This document shows, one piece after another, positions 17,320 to 54,249 of a DNA stretch of 64,000 nt. The translations under genes were made by a program, and so were the position numbers. Each line of letters begins with the position of its first letter. Position 1 is the first letter of the stretch. Under the pieces are notes generated by a model that was not told where the DNA came from, did not search any database, and saw only the letters and a program-made list of their open reading frames with translations. Origin of the DNA: Candidatus Rifleibacteriota bacterium (GTDB lineage Bacteria; Muiribacteriota; Ozemobacteria; Ozemobacterales; Ozemobacteraceae); assembly GCA_015233155.1 (NCBI GenBank), contig JADFYG010000031.1, positions 1 to 64,000 of the forward strand. Reading direction: 5' to 3'.

Positions 17320-17495
17320 CAGGGCAAATGCATTAAAAGTTCTGTGGTAGGGCGTGACCGCCGGGCGCGCCGCTTTGCGCTTCGGCGTGCCCGGCGGTCA
17401 CGCCCTACCATTTCATAGTTTCGCCCTTGCGGGCACTTCGTAGTGTCGAGAGCCGTGTTATAGACCATTCCTGCGTTTTTAATGTGTTTGCCCTG
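17320..17495 (+). mobile_element. Palindromic mobile repeat family 1, copy A (176 bp)
   Basis: Inverted ends CAGGGCAAATGCATTAAAA and the complement of CAGGGCAAACACATTAAAA enclose a 64-base core (17346-17409) that is a near-perfect hairpin of two 27-base arms. The flanks GCTAATGCCC (17310-17319) and GCTTATGTCC (17496-17505) match at eight of ten positions, a decayed target duplication. There is no gene inside; the short open frames over it are shadows of the hairpin. Confidence 0.75.
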
Positions 17496-28279: not shown

Positions 28280-28308
28280 TTGAATGACGCCGGAGGGTGT
28301 GATATACT
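28280..28308 (+). promoter_or_regulatory. Sigma70-type promoter for the FHA-ParA/kinase/phosphatase operon
   Basis: TTGAAT (28280-28285) and TATACT (28303-28308) are 17 bases apart. Transcription would start near 28315, 26 bases before the ATG at 28341, leaving room for the GGGGGTG ribosome-binding site at 28326. Confidence 0.6.
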
Positions 28309-28340
28309 CCGATCACTCTTGTGTATGGGGGTGCCTTTCC

Positions 28341-29540
28341 ATGGCTGATGAATCCAAGAAAACGATCTTCCGGAAAGCCGTTGTACAAGCGGTGGAGGAA
28401 GAAAAAAAGAAGTATCTGGTCGGCAATACGCCTCCATATCTGGGTAAGCCTTTCGAACTTGCGAAAGCGTCTTACAGTATCGGCCGTGAAGAAGGCCGTG
28501 AGCTTGTACTGGCCAGTGACATGATTTCACGTCTGCACGCGACCATTACGCGTGAGGGCGATGTTTTTTTCATTGAGGACAACAGCAGTTCCAACGGAAC
28601 CTTTCTGAATAATGCGCAGATTGAGTCAGCAAAGAAGATAAAACTTAACCATAAGGATATCCTGAAATTCGATACTTTCGAATTCATATTCGTCGATTCC
28701 GCGCGCAGCGATCTGTGGGAGACGTTAAAACCACTGTCACGCACGGGAGCGCAAATAATCGGTCTTTACAGTCCCAAAGGCGGTACAGGTCTTACAAGCA
28801 CAGCGGTGAATCTGGCTCATGCTCTCTCTACGGCGGGAAAAAAGGTGGTCATCGCCGATTTCAATTTCGCTTTCGGGGATGTTCTGACGTATTCGAACGG
28901 GAAGGTCGGCCTATCGTCGTGTGAATTGATGCGCGAACCTGAAATTACGGGCGATATGATCGACAAGTTTCTTCGTCCGGGGCAGGGTTATAGCTATATC
29001 GCGGCTCCGTCAAAAACGGAGGAAGCTGAGCTTGTGAATGACTGGGCCATGAAGAAGCCCGAACTTGTTCAGAAATTATTGTGGAGCTTGGAGTCGAAGC
29101 ATGACTTCGTGATCGTGGATCTCAAGAATCAGATCGATGATGTTGTACTGACTGTCTGGGAAGCTTCGAACCTCATCCTTTTGTTCGGCAAACCGGAGAT
29201 CGGACACATGCTTGCCCTCAAGAAAATTCTTGCGATCATGGACAAGCTCAAATATCCCGAATCGAAGGTGAAATTACTCATCTCACGGCTGGAACGTGAA
29301 GGCGGGTTGACCGGAGATGAGATCAAGGGCTTCCTTAAGCGTGATTTTTTATCGCTTCCCGATGCGCCGAAAGAAGCGATCATGACTACCCAGGGTGGGA
29401 AACTCTACGTGATGGAAAACCCGGGTTCGCCGCTGTCGAATGGCATTTCAAATCTGGCACGCAACATCCGAGGCGAGGAAATAGTCGCAGCGGTCGAAGG
29501 TGGAATTTTCGGCAAATTGCGTTCCATGTTGGGATTTTAG
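28341..29540 (+). CDS. FHA-domain protein fused to a ParA/MinD-type (CpaE/TadZ-like) ATPase
   Basis: A 399-residue protein. Residues ~40-115 form a forkhead-associated domain: YSIGREEGREL, then SRLHATI and NSSSNGTFLN, with all phosphothreonine-contacting residues. Residues ~140-390 form a SIMIBI ATPase of the ParA/MinD group: SPKGGTGLTST replaces the usual KGGxGKT loop, so the signature lysine is kept but the second, P-loop lysine is leucine, as in CpaE/TadZ pilus-localisation proteins. VVIADFNFAFGD and FVIVDLKNQIDDVVL give the switch regions. First gene of an operon with a Ser/Thr kinase and a PP2C phosphatase, so the FHA domain probably reads the state set by them. The frame extends upstream to 28284 but the promoter spans that region. 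Confidence 0.85.
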   Translation: MADESKKTIFRKAVVQAVEEEKKKYLVGNTPPYLGKPFELAKASYSIGREEGRELVLASDMISRLHATITREGDVFFIEDNSSSNGTFLNNAQIESAKKIKLNHKDILKFDTFEFIFVDSARSDLWETLKPLSRTGAQIIGLYSPKGGTGLTSTAVNLAHALSTAGKKVVIADFNFAFGDVLTYSNGKVGLSSCELMREPEITGDMIDKFLRPGQGYSYIAAPSKTEEAELVNDWAMKKPELVQKLLWSLESKHDFVIVDLKNQIDDVVLTVWEASNLILLFGKPEIGHMLALKKILAIMDKLKYPESKVKLLISRLEREGGLTGDEIKGFLKRDFLSLPDAPKEAIMTTQGGKLYVMENPGSPLSNGISNLARNIRGEEIVAAVEGGIFGKLRSMLGF

Positions 29541-29546
29541 AGAAAC

Positions 29547-31319
29547 GTGGCTGAATACACCGGAAAGCGGGCTGGAAATTTCACCATCCTCAATAAACTT
29601 GGGGATGGTGGGTTTGCAACTGTTTACCTTGCTCAACATACCGTTCTTGAAAAAAAAGCGGCTGTAAAATTCCTTTTGGAAGAGTGGATCAACGAACCTG
29701 ACGTCGTTTCGCGATTTTTTGACGAGGCGCGAACCATGGAACGGCTCAAAGATCATCCGAACATCGTAGGAATTCTCGACATTGCATCGAAGGAAATTTG
29801 CGACAAAGAGGGGCTTCCGCCGTATTTCATAATGCAGTACGTGAATGGCGTTTCTCTTGAAAGCAAAATTCATGGCGAGGAGGGGTTCACTCTCGATTTC
29901 ATTTATGATGTCGCCAAGGCAGCTTTATCCGCTCTCGCTCATTGTCACAAAATGGGCGTCATACACCGGGATATAAAACCTTCGAACATTCTCATTGACG
30001 TTGACGGGCGGGTGCTGCTGACCGACTTTGGAATTGCGAAGGCGAAGATAAATACGAGTAAAACCGGGGATGGCTTGACGCTTGGTTCCACCGATTACAT
30101 GTCACCGGAGCAAGCCCTTGGAAAACGTGACCTGGACCACCGAAGCGATATATATTCTTTCGGAGTGACCATGTATGAACTGGTCGTCGGGAAGCTTCCA
30201 TTCATTGGCGACAATCCGAATTCGGTTGCGTTGATGCACATTCAGGAGCCGGCCAGACCTCCGATTGAAATAAATGATGCTGTTCCGCCGAGGCTGAACG
30301 ACATCATAATGAAAGCCATGGAAAAGAGGCGTGAAGACCGCTACCAGACACCTGAAGATATGCTGGAAGCCTTTCAGCATGTGAATGATCCGGAGCCTTC
30401 TCTTGATGCCGATGTGAAGTCCGTCGATCTTACGAAGGCAACCGGGCAGACGCAGGAGTTACCGGAAGACAGTCTGAAAAATACTGAGGGGCGGAGGAAA
30501 AACGCAGATCCGCATGTTTCCAGATTTCAGGCGAGCTTTCAAAGCGAGGCGTTTCGCGGAGTTTTGAAGGCGTTTGCTTTGGTCATCGGATTTACGCTGA
30601 CGTTTCTGGGCGGATTCAAAGGCTATCAGGTATACACCCAGGCCGGGATAGACATTTCTTCTTTCCCGCCGGGTGCACAAGTTGATGTAAATGGTCAGAA
30701 GGTCGGGACATGTCCAATAGCATTGCCACTTACGCCTGGGATTTACAAGATCAAGTTGTCGATGCCCGATTACATCGATCAGGTAATCAAAATCAATCTT
30801 CAGCAGAAACAGAAGGTTGTTTTAAACAGGTCGCTCAAGAAGCCTGATCCTGAGATGGAGTCGCGACTGGATAAGGTTTTCGAGGGGATTGCCGCAATAG
30901 GTAGTGGAAAAAAGAAGGGATCGGCTGCACAGGAAGCGTGGCGTAAAGTCGAAGCGACCATCGACGAGGTGATTCAGAATGAAGATGCACACCTTGACTT
31001 TCTGAAGCTTTGTGAACGAAATGGCTGCCTTGCTTCAGCTGCCATGTTTTATAAGTCTCGTGTGGAAAGAGAGCCGAAAAATGCATTACTGATGACGATG
31101 TGGGGCAAGGTTCAGATCGCGAAAAATGATCTTAAAGCCGCGCTCGACACTCTCACCAAGGCCTGGGAACTGGACACCAATAGCCCGTTGTTGCTTAACG
31201 CATTGGGTGATTATTTTCTGAAAGAGGGAAACAAGCAGAAGGCTAAGCAGTATTATGAGATCTCTCTTGATCTGAACCAGAACCAACCGGATATCACGAG
31301 TAAAATGAAGGGTTTGTAG
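29547..31319 (+). CDS. Ser/Thr protein kinase with PEGA domain and TPR-like tail
   Basis: A 590-residue bitopic protein starting at GTG. Kinase domain 12-280: GDGGFATVYLA, catalytic lysine AAVKF (about 41), HRDIKPSN (about 139), DFGIA (about 159), SPEQALG. A linker is followed by one membrane helix (about 339-361), then a PEGA domain (SSFPPGAQVDVNGQKVG, about 365-432), whose family sits outside the membrane, and TPR-like helices at about 480-590. This Hanks-type topology places sensing outside and phosphorylation inside. The start is six bases after the FHA-ParA stop; only a weak AGAGAA precedes it. With the following phosphatase it makes a reversible phosphorylation pair. Confidence 0.92.
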   Translation: MAEYTGKRAGNFTILNKLGDGGFATVYLAQHTVLEKKAAVKFLLEEWINEPDVVSRFFDEARTMERLKDHPNIVGILDIASKEICDKEGLPPYFIMQYVNGVSLESKIHGEEGFTLDFIYDVAKAALSALAHCHKMGVIHRDIKPSNILIDVDGRVLLTDFGIAKAKINTSKTGDGLTLGSTDYMSPEQALGKRDLDHRSDIYSFGVTMYELVVGKLPFIGDNPNSVALMHIQEPARPPIEINDAVPPRLNDIIMKAMEKRREDRYQTPEDMLEAFQHVNDPEPSLDADVKSVDLTKATGQTQELPEDSLKNTEGRRKNADPHVSRFQASFQSEAFRGVLKAFALVIGFTLTFLGGFKGYQVYTQAGIDISSFPPGAQVDVNGQKVGTCPIALPLTPGIYKIKLSMPDYIDQVIKINLQQKQKVVLNRSLKKPDPEMESRLDKVFEGIAAIGSGKKKGSAAQEAWRKVEATIDEVIQNEDAHLDFLKLCERNGCLASAAMFYKSRVEREPKNALLMTMWGKVQIAKNDLKAALDTLTKAWELDTNSPLLLNALGDYFLKEGNKQKAKQYYEISLDLNQNQPDITSKMKGL

Positions 31320-31334: not shown

Positions 31335-32093
31335 GTGGAATACAAGGCTTTCGGGAAAACGGACATGGGCAAAGTCCGAAGCAACAATGAAGATGCCATT
31401 TTTTCGACCGACCGCGATGGTGTTTTTCTAGTCGCTGACGGAATGGGCGGACACAAAGCCGGCGAAGTCGCTTCGGCGATGGCTCGGGATATTCTATCTG
31501 CGCGGCTTGTCCAGCAGAAATCTGCTGATAACCTGGAGCCGGCGATTCGCGAGGCTTTTCTCGACGCCAACGAGCAAATCCGCTTGAAATCAACCGAGAA
31601 TGCTGAACAACAAGGTATGGGTTGTACTTGTGTTTTATTGATGCTGCGTGAGCAAACTTTTTTCCTGGCTCATGTGGGCGATTCACGGATATATTTGTTT
31701 CGCAAGGGCGATTTCAAGCAGATGACTCGCGACCATTCTTATGTCGAAGAGTTGTTCATAAGAGGGTTGATTACCGAGGATGAAAAGATTGATCATCCAT
31801 ACAAAAATCAGATCACGCGTTACATAGGTTGTAATCAGAAGCTCGAAGTTGACATTACTTCCGGTCCCGTCTGGAACGGCGATATGTTTTTGCTTTGCAG
31901 CGACGGATTAACCGATATGGTGCCACTGCCGCGACTCAAAGAGCTCTTCGTGAAACACGAAGAACCTCAACCTCTTGTCGAAACGCTTATTGCGGAAGCT
32001 CTTGAAGCCGGCGGTCGCGATAACGTTTCCGCAATCGTTGCGAAGATCACTTCAAAGAAGACCAGCTTCTTTAAAAAAATTCTTGGTTGGTAG
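31335..32093 (+). CDS. PP2C-family protein phosphatase
   Basis: A 252-residue soluble phosphatase of the bacterial Stp type. The metal-binding motifs are all present: KVRSNNEDAI, VADGMGGHKAGEV, HVGDSRIYLFR, TRDHSYV, SDGLTDMV and GGRDNVSAIV. It should remove phosphates placed by the adjacent kinase. The GTG start is 16 bases downstream of the kinase gene and has GGAGGA seven bases upstream. It is the last gene of the operon; the 316 bases after it contain only palindromic repeats. Confidence 0.95.
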   Translation: MEYKAFGKTDMGKVRSNNEDAIFSTDRDGVFLVADGMGGHKAGEVASAMARDILSARLVQQKSADNLEPAIREAFLDANEQIRLKSTENAEQQGMGCTCVLLMLREQTFFLAHVGDSRIYLFRKGDFKQMTRDHSYVEELFIRGLITEDEKIDHPYKNQITRYIGCNQKLEVDITSGPVWNGDMFLLCSDGLTDMVPLPRLKELFVKHEEPQPLVETLIAEALEAGGRDNVSAIVAKITSKKTSFFKKILGW

Positions 32094-32409: not shown

Positions 32410-33624
32410 TTACATGCCGAATACTTCTTTTACCATGGAGAACATATTCCAGGTGCCCTTATCCGGATCTTCACCTACCAGACGACGACATAGTCTTTCC
32501 ATGGAGAGCATGAGAGGTGTGCCGGCGAGAACTGGTTGCAGAACGAATGGGTCGCCTGTGTTGACCGAGGGAATTACGATGTCGCCTTCACTTGGAATGA
32601 AATGACTGATGGCATAGCGCAGGGAGGTTTCGACGCGCGACGGCTCGAGACCGAGTGCTTTGAAAGCGCGGTTAAGCACGACTTTGATCTTGTCCCGCGG
32701 AATCTTCAGACGGCCGAAAAGATCTATCAGGAGCTTGGTGTTTTTGATAAATGTCAATTCCATGGTCATCATGACAAGTACAAGATCGCTCATGTCTATG
32801 ATTTTCAGTTCGAGCTCAGTCAGATGGTTTTGGGTGTCCACGATTACGAAGTCGTAGTTTGCGCGGAGTATATCCAGGGTTTGCTCAACGAGTTCGATCT
32901 TGATTTTTTCGGCTGTTTCCGGTAGGGGTGGCGACAGCAATACTTTAAGTCCGGATTTGTGCGTGGTCAGCTGCGTTTCGATCTTCTCAATTTTGAGCGG
33001 CTGGCGGATTTTAGATAGTTCATACATATTTTTCTCTGTCGGGAGGTTCAGAATAATACTCTGATCGCCAAACGCGAGATTCAGATCGACGAGTACCACC
33101 TTTTTTTTCCAGAAATACTTCAACATGATGGCTGCGTTTGCCGACATCACTGATTTTCCGGCTCCGCCCTTAACGTTGAAGAATGTAATGATCTGACCGA
33201 ACGGAGTTTTTGAAAGCCCCTGTTCAAGTAGAATCCCGGCACGATGAGAATACGTCTCCCGCAGTTCTCGGGCGAATCCGGGGTAGAGCCCTACCAGGCG
33301 CAAAACGGATTCTTTGGGAATGAACATGATCTGGAATTCCATGTATCCGATCAGTGCAGCCAGTGCGCCTGTGCCGTTGAGCATCTCGACTTCGCCATAT
33401 GTATCGCCAGGATCGAGAGTAAAAAGCGTCTTTTTCTTTCCCTGATGGGTTTTTATAACACTGACCTGACCTTCGACGAGCAGGATGAACTCCTTGACTT
33501 CTTCGCTTTCATTCAGGATGCGCGTGCCGGAAGTATACTGTTTAAATCGGCACTCCTTCTTGAGTTTTTCAACTTCCCTGGAAGGAAGGGTGCTGAAGAA
33601 AGTAAAAGTTTTCAGATCTATCAT
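32410..33624 (-). CDS. Cyclic-nucleotide-type domain fused to a ParA/MinD-type ATPase
   Basis: A 404-residue protein. Residues 1-125 are a CRP/cNMP-binding-type beta barrel (FILLVEGQVSVIK, then LDPGDTYGEVEMLNGTG). The phosphate-binding cassette lacks the arginine expected after the GE motif (GALAALI where PRxA is normal), so classical cAMP binding is doubtful. Residues 143-400 are a ParA/MinD ATPase with an intact loop FNVKGGAGKSVMSANA, switch VVLVDLNLAFGD and FVIVDTQNHLTEL. It faces the FHA-ParA operon, whose ATPase has similar downstream motifs, so the two are probably functional relatives. In CpaE/TadZ proteins the N-terminal domain is a receiver-like domain; here it is replaced. Confidence 0.85.
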   Translation of the reverse strand: MIDLKTFTFFSTLPSREVEKLKKECRFKQYTSGTRILNESEEVKEFILLVEGQVSVIKTHQGKKKTLFTLDPGDTYGEVEMLNGTGALAALIGYMEFQIMFIPKESVLRLVGLYPGFARELRETYSHRAGILLEQGLSKTPFGQIITFFNVKGGAGKSVMSANAAIMLKYFWKKKVVLVDLNLAFGDQSIILNLPTEKNMYELSKIRQPLKIEKIETQLTTHKSGLKVLLSPPLPETAEKIKIELVEQTLDILRANYDFVIVDTQNHLTELELKIIDMSDLVLVMMTMELTFIKNTKLLIDLFGRLKIPRDKIKVVLNRAFKALGLEPSRVETSLRYAISHFIPSEGDIVIPSVNTGDPFVLQPVLAGTPLMLSMERLCRRLVGEDPDKGTWNMFSMVKEVFGM

Positions 33625-33774: not shown

Positions 33775-33932
33775 CAGGGCAAACGCATTAAAAGTTCTGT
33801 GGTAGGGCGCGACCGCTGGGCGCGCCGCTTCGCGCTTCGGCGTGCCCGGCGGTCACGCCCTACCTTACTCATAGTAACCTCATTATGAGCCGCGCTATAG
33901 GCCAATTCCCCATTGTTAAAGTATTTGCCCTG
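33775..33932 (+). mobile_element. Palindromic mobile repeat family 1, copy B (158 bp)
   Basis: Left end CAGGGCAAACGCATTAAAA, right end GTATTTGCCCTG. Core hairpin at 33801-33864. The flanks ATTTTTTAGT (33765-33774) and ATTTTTTAGC (33933-33942) are the same at nine of ten positions, a recent-looking target duplication. It lacks an 18-base segment present in copies A and C. The surrounding 362-base gap contains nothing else recognisable. Confidence 0.8.
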
Positions 33933-49537: not shown

Positions 49538-49713
49538 CAGGGCAAACGCATTAAAGTTCTGTGGTAGGGCGCGACCGCCGGGCGCGCCGCTTTGCGCTTC
49601 GGCGTGCCCGGCGGTCACGCCCTACCATATCATAATTTCGCCCTTGCGGGCACTTCGCAGTGTCGAGAGCCGTGTTATAGACCATTCCTGAGTTTTTTAA
49701 TGCGCTTACCCTG
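49538..49713 (+). mobile_element. Palindromic mobile repeat family 1, copy C (176 bp)
   Basis: Ends CAGGGCAAACGCATTAAAG and the complement of CAGGGTAAGCGCATTAAAAA; core hairpin at 49563-49626. The flanks CCATTTCACG (49528-49537 and 49714-49723) are identical over ten bases, a clean target duplication. The other parts of this 501-base gap between genes (49277-49527 and 49724-49777) show nothing recognisable. Confidence 0.85.
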
Positions 49714-52497: not shown

Positions 52498-52526
52498 TTG
52501 ACACGATATCGGTGCAATGCTAGACT
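52498..52526 (+). promoter_or_regulatory. Sigma70-type promoter for the cNMP-chemoreceptor gene
   Basis: TTGACA (52498-52503), a perfect -35, is 17 bases from TAGACT (52521-52526). The start of transcription would be near 52533, 14 bases before ATG 52547, which rules out the upstream in-frame ATG at 52517. No Shine-Dalgarno sequence lies in the short leader. Confidence 0.68.
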
Positions 52527-52546
52527 GCGGGTTCACCTACCGATTT

Positions 52547-53230
52547 ATGAAGGAATCTGAAAAAATACAGTTTTTACGCCAGGTTACGCTCTTTCGGAGT
52601 CTTTCCGAAAAGGCGTTGCTTGAGCTGTCCGCCATTACGGTTGAGCAGACAATTTCAGCCAAGATGACCGTATTCAGGGAAGGCGATCCTGGCGATGCTC
52701 TTTATATCGTCATGAACGGGAAGGTCAATATCCTTCAGCGAAATTCGGAAGGAGTTGAAACGGTTCTTGCGACTGTTTCAAAGAATGCGGTCATTGGTGA
52801 CATGGCGGTCATAGATGATCAGCCGCGCTCAGCGTCAGTCATGACGGTCCAGGATACAGTGTTTCTCATTATCACCAAGGCTGATTTCAAGAGACTTCTC
52901 GGAGAAACTCCTGAAATCTCGTTTCAAATTCTGAAACTCGTGACCGAGCGACTGCGAACGACCAATCTCCACTTGAAGGAGCTCGAAACATCAGCCATTC
53001 AGATGCAGGAAGTCATTCGCGTCATTACCAAAATTGCCAGGAAAAGCAATTTACTTTCATTGAATGCTTCGATTGAAGCGGCGCGGGTCGGGGAGCAGGG
53101 GCGCGCGTTTTCCGTCGTCGCCTCAGAAATGAAAAAACTGGCCGAGGACTCGGCCCAGGAAGCCACCAAGATAGACAAGCTGTTACAGACGCTTCAGGCC
53201 AAGGCACGTGCTCTGGCAATTATGAAATAA
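52547..53230 (+). CDS. cNMP-binding domain fused to a truncated chemoreceptor signalling hairpin
   Basis: A 227-residue soluble protein. Residues ~8-125 are a CRP-type cyclic-nucleotide domain with an almost canonical cassette ([16 protein letters not shown], arginine present). From about 160 to 205 the sequence [20 protein letters not shown], then [18 protein letters not shown], is the conserved hairpin tip of methyl-accepting chemotaxis proteins, the part that contacts CheA and CheW. There is no membrane segment and no HAMP domain, and the coiled coil is much shorter than in usual receptors. No DNA-binding domain is present. It may tie a nucleotide signal to a chemotaxis-like array. It is 31 bases upstream of the Hfq-like gene. 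Confidence 0.85.
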
Positions 53231-54091: not shown

Positions 54092-54249
54092 CAGGGCAAA
54101 CTCATTAAAAATCGGGAATAGGCCTATAGCGCGGCTCTCGACACAGGAACGATGACTATGGTAGGGCGTGACCGCCGGGCACGCCGAAGCGCAAAGCGGC
54201 GCGCCCGGCGGTCGCGCCCTACCACAGAACTTTTAATGCGCTTGCCCTG
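54092..54249 (-). mobile_element. Palindromic mobile repeat family 1, copy D (158 bp)
   Basis: Ends CAGGGCAAACTCATTAAAA and the complement of CAGGGCAAGCGCATTAAAA; core hairpin of two 27-base arms at 54160-54223. The flanks GTATAACCAC (54082-54091 and 54250-54259) are identical over ten bases. Its orientation is opposite to copies A, B and C, judged by the asymmetric spacer (GGCCTATAGCGCGGCTCT lies left of the core). Length and spacer equal copy B. It splits an ACCACAGAT-type motif that belongs to the flank. Confidence 0.85.

Follow-up and report, generated by a model that had tools for sequence, protein, structure and literature searches.

Joint retention and loss of two ParA-type proteins, a Ser/Thr kinase and a PP2C phosphatase point to a four-protein signalling module in uncultured Riflebacteria

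The genes for a CRP-headed ParA/MinD-type ATPase (CRP-ParA), an FHA-headed ParA-type protein (FHA-ParA), a Ser/Thr kinase and a PP2C phosphatase are kept and lost together, and their shared fate suggests that uncultured Riflebacteria have a four-protein signalling module that has gone unstudied. They lie in a window of 64,000 nucleotides, the whole stretch of DNA that was analysed, from a genome of 6.3 Mb. The four genes behave as one unit that is absent in at least two separate lineages, as indicated by their joint absence at a shared site, their joint retention when unlinked, and the presence of the intact block in changed surroundings, and it is very likely that the block is a functional module. 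The best explanation, to which a probability of roughly 45% is assigned, is that the four genes would form a switch controlled by phosphorylation, in which CRP-ParA is the half competent for ATPase activity. Specifically, we propose that the block works like a CpaE/MinD switch with phospho-control, through an asymmetric, membrane-associated, phosphorylation-gated pair.

CRP-ParA is encoded on the minus strand (32410..33624) by an ORF of 404 aa with an ATG start, and comprises a barrel (residues ~1-125), a hinge helix, an ATPase domain (143-385) and a putatively amphipathic C-terminal tail (386-404). The initial annotation had described a CRP-type barrel joined to a ParA domain, and this fusion is real: in Pfam, cNMP_binding (PF00027) is found at 28-111 (E 5e-11, 42.9 bits, cut-off 27.5), assigning the head by profile to the cyclic-nucleotide-binding barrel family, and AAA_31/ParA at 144-297 (E 4.8e-11, 43.4 bits, cut-off 27). 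The Walker A motif reads NVKGGAGKS, with KGGAGKS invariant in 15/15 orthologues, so that the deviant form KGGxGK[ST], with both the signature and the P-loop lysine, is present throughout. Chance is not a plausible origin of the fusion, because its full length is kept at 59-73% identity in 14 other genomes.

The convergent layout noticed earlier was likewise confirmed, as CRP-ParA faces a plus-strand operon that codes for FHA-ParA, the kinase and the phosphatase. FHA-ParA (28284..29540, plus strand) is 418 aa long as listed, with a conserved start probably at Met20, and consists of an N-tail with KKTIFR around Thr27, an FHA domain (64-129), a ParA-like domain (155-400) and the C-terminal tail GGIFGKLRSMLGF. 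The FHA pocket motifs GR, SRxH and S[SAC]NG are present in 18/18 orthologues, and the N-tail motif K-T-[VI]-[FY]-R ahead of the FHA domain in 17/18, being absent in G009. The kinase (29547..31319, plus strand, 590 aa) has a kinase domain (13-269) with the motifs HRDIKPSN and DFG, a single predicted transmembrane segment at ~336-357, a PEGA domain (368-432) and then TPR; HRD and DFG recur in all 32 rows listed, among which are truncated and duplicate copies. The phosphatase (31335..32093, plus strand, 252 aa) belongs to the Stp1/IreP family (NF033484, 254.7 bits, cut-off 230). In the window and in ten relatives, its C-terminus is a short aromatic basic tail (SFFKKILGW or GFFKKLFNW type), which is absent from the G008 and G018-G020 copies.

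The distribution of the four genes was surveyed in 39 genomes of the phylum, 24 of which belong to the window's family. Full-length CRP-ParA orthologues occur in 15 genomes including that of the window, and FHA-ParA orthologues in 18, in both cases all within this family; across the 39 genomes, the next CRP-ParA match beyond the orthologues has 40% identity and covers the ATPase half only. Named relatives of CRP-ParA are Riflebacteria (Candidatus Ozemobacter sibiricus, 73%; Rifleibacterium amylolyticum, 66%; and others), and six MAG records that overlap with the genome set hold the fusion at 65-73% identity. Co-occurrence, on which the suggested pairing of the two ParA proteins depended, was borne out: of the 24 genomes in the family, both proteins are encoded in 15 and neither in six, three have FHA-ParA alone and no genome has CRP-ParA alone. 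The three FHA-ParA-only genomes (G009, G012, G027) are no argument against pairing, because their contigs, 4.5-5.1 kb long, end in the kinase-phosphatase stretch before the place of CRP-ParA. That the two ParA proteins are conserved together may, however, stem from a shared pathway rather than from direct contact.

Gene order shows the same coherence. CRP-ParA is convergent to the phosphatase gene in 13/15 genomes; the contig end falls inside the operon in G007 and G025, and in G010 and G011 CRP-ParA lies on a separate contig with different neighbours, both ParA parts still being kept. The genes that flank the block are not constant across genomes, and the window's own genome has the intact block in different surroundings, with the usual flanking genes on other contigs. 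These flanking genes (L026:8638-9870, coding for an SH3 protein, and L026:15139-15750) are ~5.3 kb apart in L026, and they are 366 and 369 bp apart in G013 and G014, where the interval contains no gene of the block. In G021, which like G013 and G014 is without exactly the four block genes, they stand 294 bp apart with one inverted, and the three other members of its genus have the block. All flank distances assume that each ORF begins at its first start codon. As for the remaining genomes without either ParA protein, a contig end is met in G005 and G023, and close matches to the flanking genes were not found in G017.

The same data bear on the most resilient alternative, namely that CRP-ParA works on its own as a homodimeric positioning ATPase similar to CpaE, and that the FHA-ParA/kinase/phosphatase operon is separate from it and merely adjacent. 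Its complete active site in 15/15 orthologues is consistent with autonomy, as is the convergent gene order, which excludes a single transcript, and the closest relative of its ATPase half in its own genome is CpaE of the REC-ParA type (33%, E 1e-42), ahead of FHA-ParA (E 7e-18). However, mere adjacency does not account for the joint absence of exactly four genes in G013, G014 and G021, for the retention of both proteins in G010 and G011 though unlinked, or for the lack of any genome with CRP-ParA alone among the 24 of the family, and this alternative is therefore considered unlikely, though it keeps more weight than the others discussed below.

The two ATPase halves are related to each other, as had been supposed: they share 27.7% identity over 249 aa with 81.6 bits, against 23.5 bits for the best of 50 shuffles, and their profile comparison gives E 5.6e-34, whereas a BLASTP comparison of the heads shows no relation (best E 2.7). 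A tree was built from 90 ATPase domains, part of the regions being hand-picked from the CRP-ParA and FHA-ParA match lists; in it, CRP-ParA forms a clade of 15 rows (support 100/99) that falls, weakly, with REC-headed CpaE-type proteins (76/98), and FHA-ParA forms a clade of 16 rows (100/100) that groups with a cNMP-headed clade (83/93). Outside this tree are incomplete rows (L044, L048), cut copies (L005 and L007, of L014 and L015), and rows with HMM E > 1e-30 or < 200 model positions, that is, fragments and very distant matches. A recent duplication as the source of the pair was rejected, since the two are not sisters in the tree. A plasmid origin was also rejected, as 15 plasmid records match the ATPase half only and none covers 80% of the query.

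The idea of exchangeable sensory heads is right at the level of the family, in which REC, cNMP and FHA heads are carried on related ATPase domains, and the family shows how readily a CpaE-type ATPase swaps heads within one bacterial family. The window's genome holds, besides the two proteins of the block, a REC-ParA in a Tad operon on another contig, two more cNMP-ParA proteins of ~400 aa, a FleN-like protein, and cNMP-ParA-TPR proteins of 963 and 973 aa plus a split relative. These large cNMP-ParA-TPR genes (~970 aa) are located at L014:6249-9140, L015:7696-10617 and L016:7653-10290, the L016 copy being composed of two ORFs.

The loss of the P-loop lysine in FHA-ParA is the new point of this analysis. 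The P-loop of the window's protein reads KGGTGLT in place of KGGxGKT/S, which by motif is not that of an intact ATPase, and its orthologues invariably carry KGG[TAS]G[LI] (18/18), so that the P-loop lysine is lost and the signature lysine kept in all of them. The full deviant Walker A motif is thus found in 0/18, and the homology to the family is still seen by profile. Moreover, Asp192 of Walker A' and Asp279 of Walker B are kept in 18/18, and K281 in 15/18. The initial view of two related ATPases acting as a pair consequently holds for the relatedness of the halves and their co-occurrence, but not for sister paralogy, which the tree contradicts, nor for two equivalent ATPases, given the lysine lost in all FHA-ParA orthologues. 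The lysine is also absent from the nine cNMP-ParA proteins nearest to FHA-ParA (L004, identical with L017, and eight others), which have R in seven cases, N in one and C in one, and the position is variable in REC-ParA rows (GK 14, GR 7; n=21). At L017:9401-11036, a STAS-domain gene directly precedes a cNMP-ParA with the P-loop KDGVGRT, another lysine-free ParA that has a regulator next to it.

Lysine loss does not by itself support calling FHA-ParA dead, because the E. rectale TadZ, according to PMC10482377, is still active as an ATPase although both lysines are missing, their place being taken by a lysine from a helix nearby; both motif lysines are marked in a review (PMC9178275), where BcsQ is listed as RGGVGTT. 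It could hence be argued that each of the two ParA proteins is an active ATPase with a head of its own and that FHA-ParA substitutes another lysine in the manner of TadZ, in line with its conserved signature lysine and acidic residues and with K281. Nonetheless, this leaves unexplained the asymmetry between an L/I fixed in 18/18 FHA-ParA and a K fixed in 15/15 CRP-ParA, and such a reading is judged improbable.

The head of CRP-ParA deviates in a comparable way. An arginine at the PRxA position is the cyclic-nucleotide contact of cNMP domains, and its absence from CRP-ParA, noticed at the outset as GALAALI, was verified in every orthologue: the cassette reads YGEVE[MIL]LNGT and 0/15 have the arginine, whereas other cNMP heads of the family read PRNA/TRSA there, including those of the L018-type and TPR-type paralogues. 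A true cyclic-nucleotide receptor was accordingly rejected, and of the suggestion that the head responds to a ligand or to a protein contact, the ligand is weakened by the missing arginine and the protein contact is made more likely. The broader notion that the head senses a cyclic nucleotide or another small ligand, and that the pair integrates ligand and phosphorylation, fits the invariant Gly-Glu of YGEVE and the good conservation of the head (mean pairwise identity 65% versus 70% for the ATPase half) but is highly improbable in view of an arginine lost in this head and retained in those paralogues.

The C-termini of both ParA proteins are short conserved tails, GGIFxKLKxxLG and TW[NS]MFSxxKEVFG, that of CRP-ParA being conserved in 15/15, and these presumably resemble the tails of MinD. 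Their hydrophobic moments in the two window proteins are fairly high, only modestly above shuffles, of which 37 and 60 of 500 reach the same values. As shuffled sequences attain such moments, the membrane role is drawn by analogy with CpaE and MinD, a C-terminal amphipathic helix being described for CpaE in PMC13170226, and on this analogy attachment to the membrane via the tails is probable. The AlphaFold2 models of both proteins are poor (pLDDT 52.4 and 53.8, seven sequences each), except that the FHA part was predicted well, residues 41-140 including blocks at 71-92, and for this reason the fold assignments are based on sequence profiles.

In the preferred reading of CRP-ParA as the competent half of a phosphorylation-controlled switch, the membrane kinase would sense an envelope signal by its PEGA/TPR part beyond the single membrane helix and may phosphorylate Thr27 in the N-tail of FHA-ParA and/or Thr391 of CRP-ParA, which directly precedes the C-terminal helix and is invariant in 15/15. 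The FHA domain would bind the phosphothreonine, either that of its own protein (in cis, like GarA/OdhI) or that of the partner, and such binding would decide whether FHA-ParA associates with CRP-ParA. CRP-ParA is predicted from its intact deviant Walker A site to bind and hydrolyse ATP, its barrel without arginine may act as a protein-contact or dimer domain as REC does in CpaE, and FHA-ParA would be the regulatory partner. Its signature lysine may reach the ATP of CRP-ParA in trans, a proposal made because the signature lysine of MinD, in passages of PMC10482377, is thought to contact the ATP of the other protomer. The dimers would then present a pair of amphipathic C-terminal helices to the inner membrane in the manner of CpaE/MinD, and may place or license an envelope client, and the PP2C phosphatase would reset the switch. 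The parts of this scheme differ in strength: a phospho-switch through FHA-ParA is reasonably likely, the hetero-pairing of CRP-ParA and FHA-ParA is tentative, and it is doubtful that the two form an obligate asymmetric pair in which FHA-ParA lends its signature lysine in trans to the competent CRP-ParA, with the kinase and phosphatase controlling the heterodimer and hence membrane attachment.

If true, the obligate asymmetric pair would amount to a MinD-like switch that protein phosphorylation operates. Positioning switches of the ParA/MinD type are usually presented as homodimers that depend on an activator and on a nucleotide cycle of their own, and a competent subunit paired with a lysine-free one under a kinase and a phosphatase would show phosphorylation wired into such a switch. 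The four genes can be reconstituted in E. coli, which makes the idea directly testable.

Known systems resemble the block in parts. CpaE/TadZ of Tad pili share the plan of a signalling-type N-terminal head, a MinD-like ATPase and, putatively, a C-terminal amphipathic tail, but the block proteins have a CRP-type (cNMP_binding above cut-off) or FHA head instead of REC, no Tad gene is present among the nine neighbours scanned, and a Ser/Thr kinase and a PP2C phosphatase are coupled to them. Membership of CpaE was rejected on the missing REC head and adjoining Tad genes and on the NCBIfam CpaE-homologue model, which scores far under its cut-off (27.6 vs 154.45). The best solved relative of both ATPase halves is the ParA-family chain of PDB 3ea0, in which the P-loop lysine is also absent in the printed alignment and which, unlike the block proteins, has no head.

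In GarA/OdhI, the phosphorylated tail closes onto the protein's own FHA domain. FHA-ParA resembles these proteins in having an FHA domain with a putative phosphorylatable N-terminal Thr motif, and the TPR-bearing kinase recalls their partner PknG; GarA is moreover the nearest solved FHA domain by sequence (6i2q, E 4e-7). In contrast to GarA/OdhI, the FHA head is fused to a ParA-like domain, the block kinase is transmembrane and PknB-like, the OdhI model scores 30.7 on FHA-ParA against a cut-off of 200, and the ETTS phosphorylation motif is not present in the N-tail, which has K-T-V-F-R where GarA/OdhI have E-T-T-S-V-F-R, with a motif spacing that differs from that of GarA. According to PMC8546545, the peptide phosphorylated by PknG is ETTS followed by VFR, and phosphorylation lifts the inhibition of an enzyme. 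The PknB/PrkC-Stp1 pairs are matched by a kinase domain that profile comparison places closest to the PASTA-kinase model and by a phosphatase over the Stp1/IreP cut-off, but the block kinase bears PEGA/TPR instead of PASTA and is tied to two ParA-like proteins. The type VI secretion trio Fha/PpkA/PppA, which came into question through the combination of kinase, phosphatase and FHA protein, was rejected as an identity of the block, the TagH model matching the FHA part only (46.2 bits, cut-off 120.25), and type VI secretion genes were not found among the neighbours scanned. A literature search returned no FHA-ParA or cNMP-ParA fusion described as a system, although it was partly off-target and is weak evidence of absence.

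The window has further features of its own. A scan for promoters and terminators gave nothing above chance. A dispersed palindromic repeat, GGTAGGGCGTGACCGCCGGGC, has 13 matches in the window with its reverse complement counted, against 0 expected (5428, 7326, 8232, 17346-17409, 32152, 32283, 33801-33864, 49563-49626 and 54160-54223). It is often paired over ~60 bp, and copies flank the CRP-ParA gene on both sides; short ORFs across it have a common Arg-rich peptide, and a search of Rfam gave no match, the repeat included. At 52517-53230 (plus strand), a gene that adjoins an Hfq-like gene codes for a fusion of a cNMP domain with part of an MCP signalling domain (24-102 of 172); a relative stands beside Hfq in G007, and another is present in G023. 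Lastly, L026 is titled Candidatus Methylomirabilis and has a DegP identical to that of G006, a member of the window's family, so its title is probably wrong.
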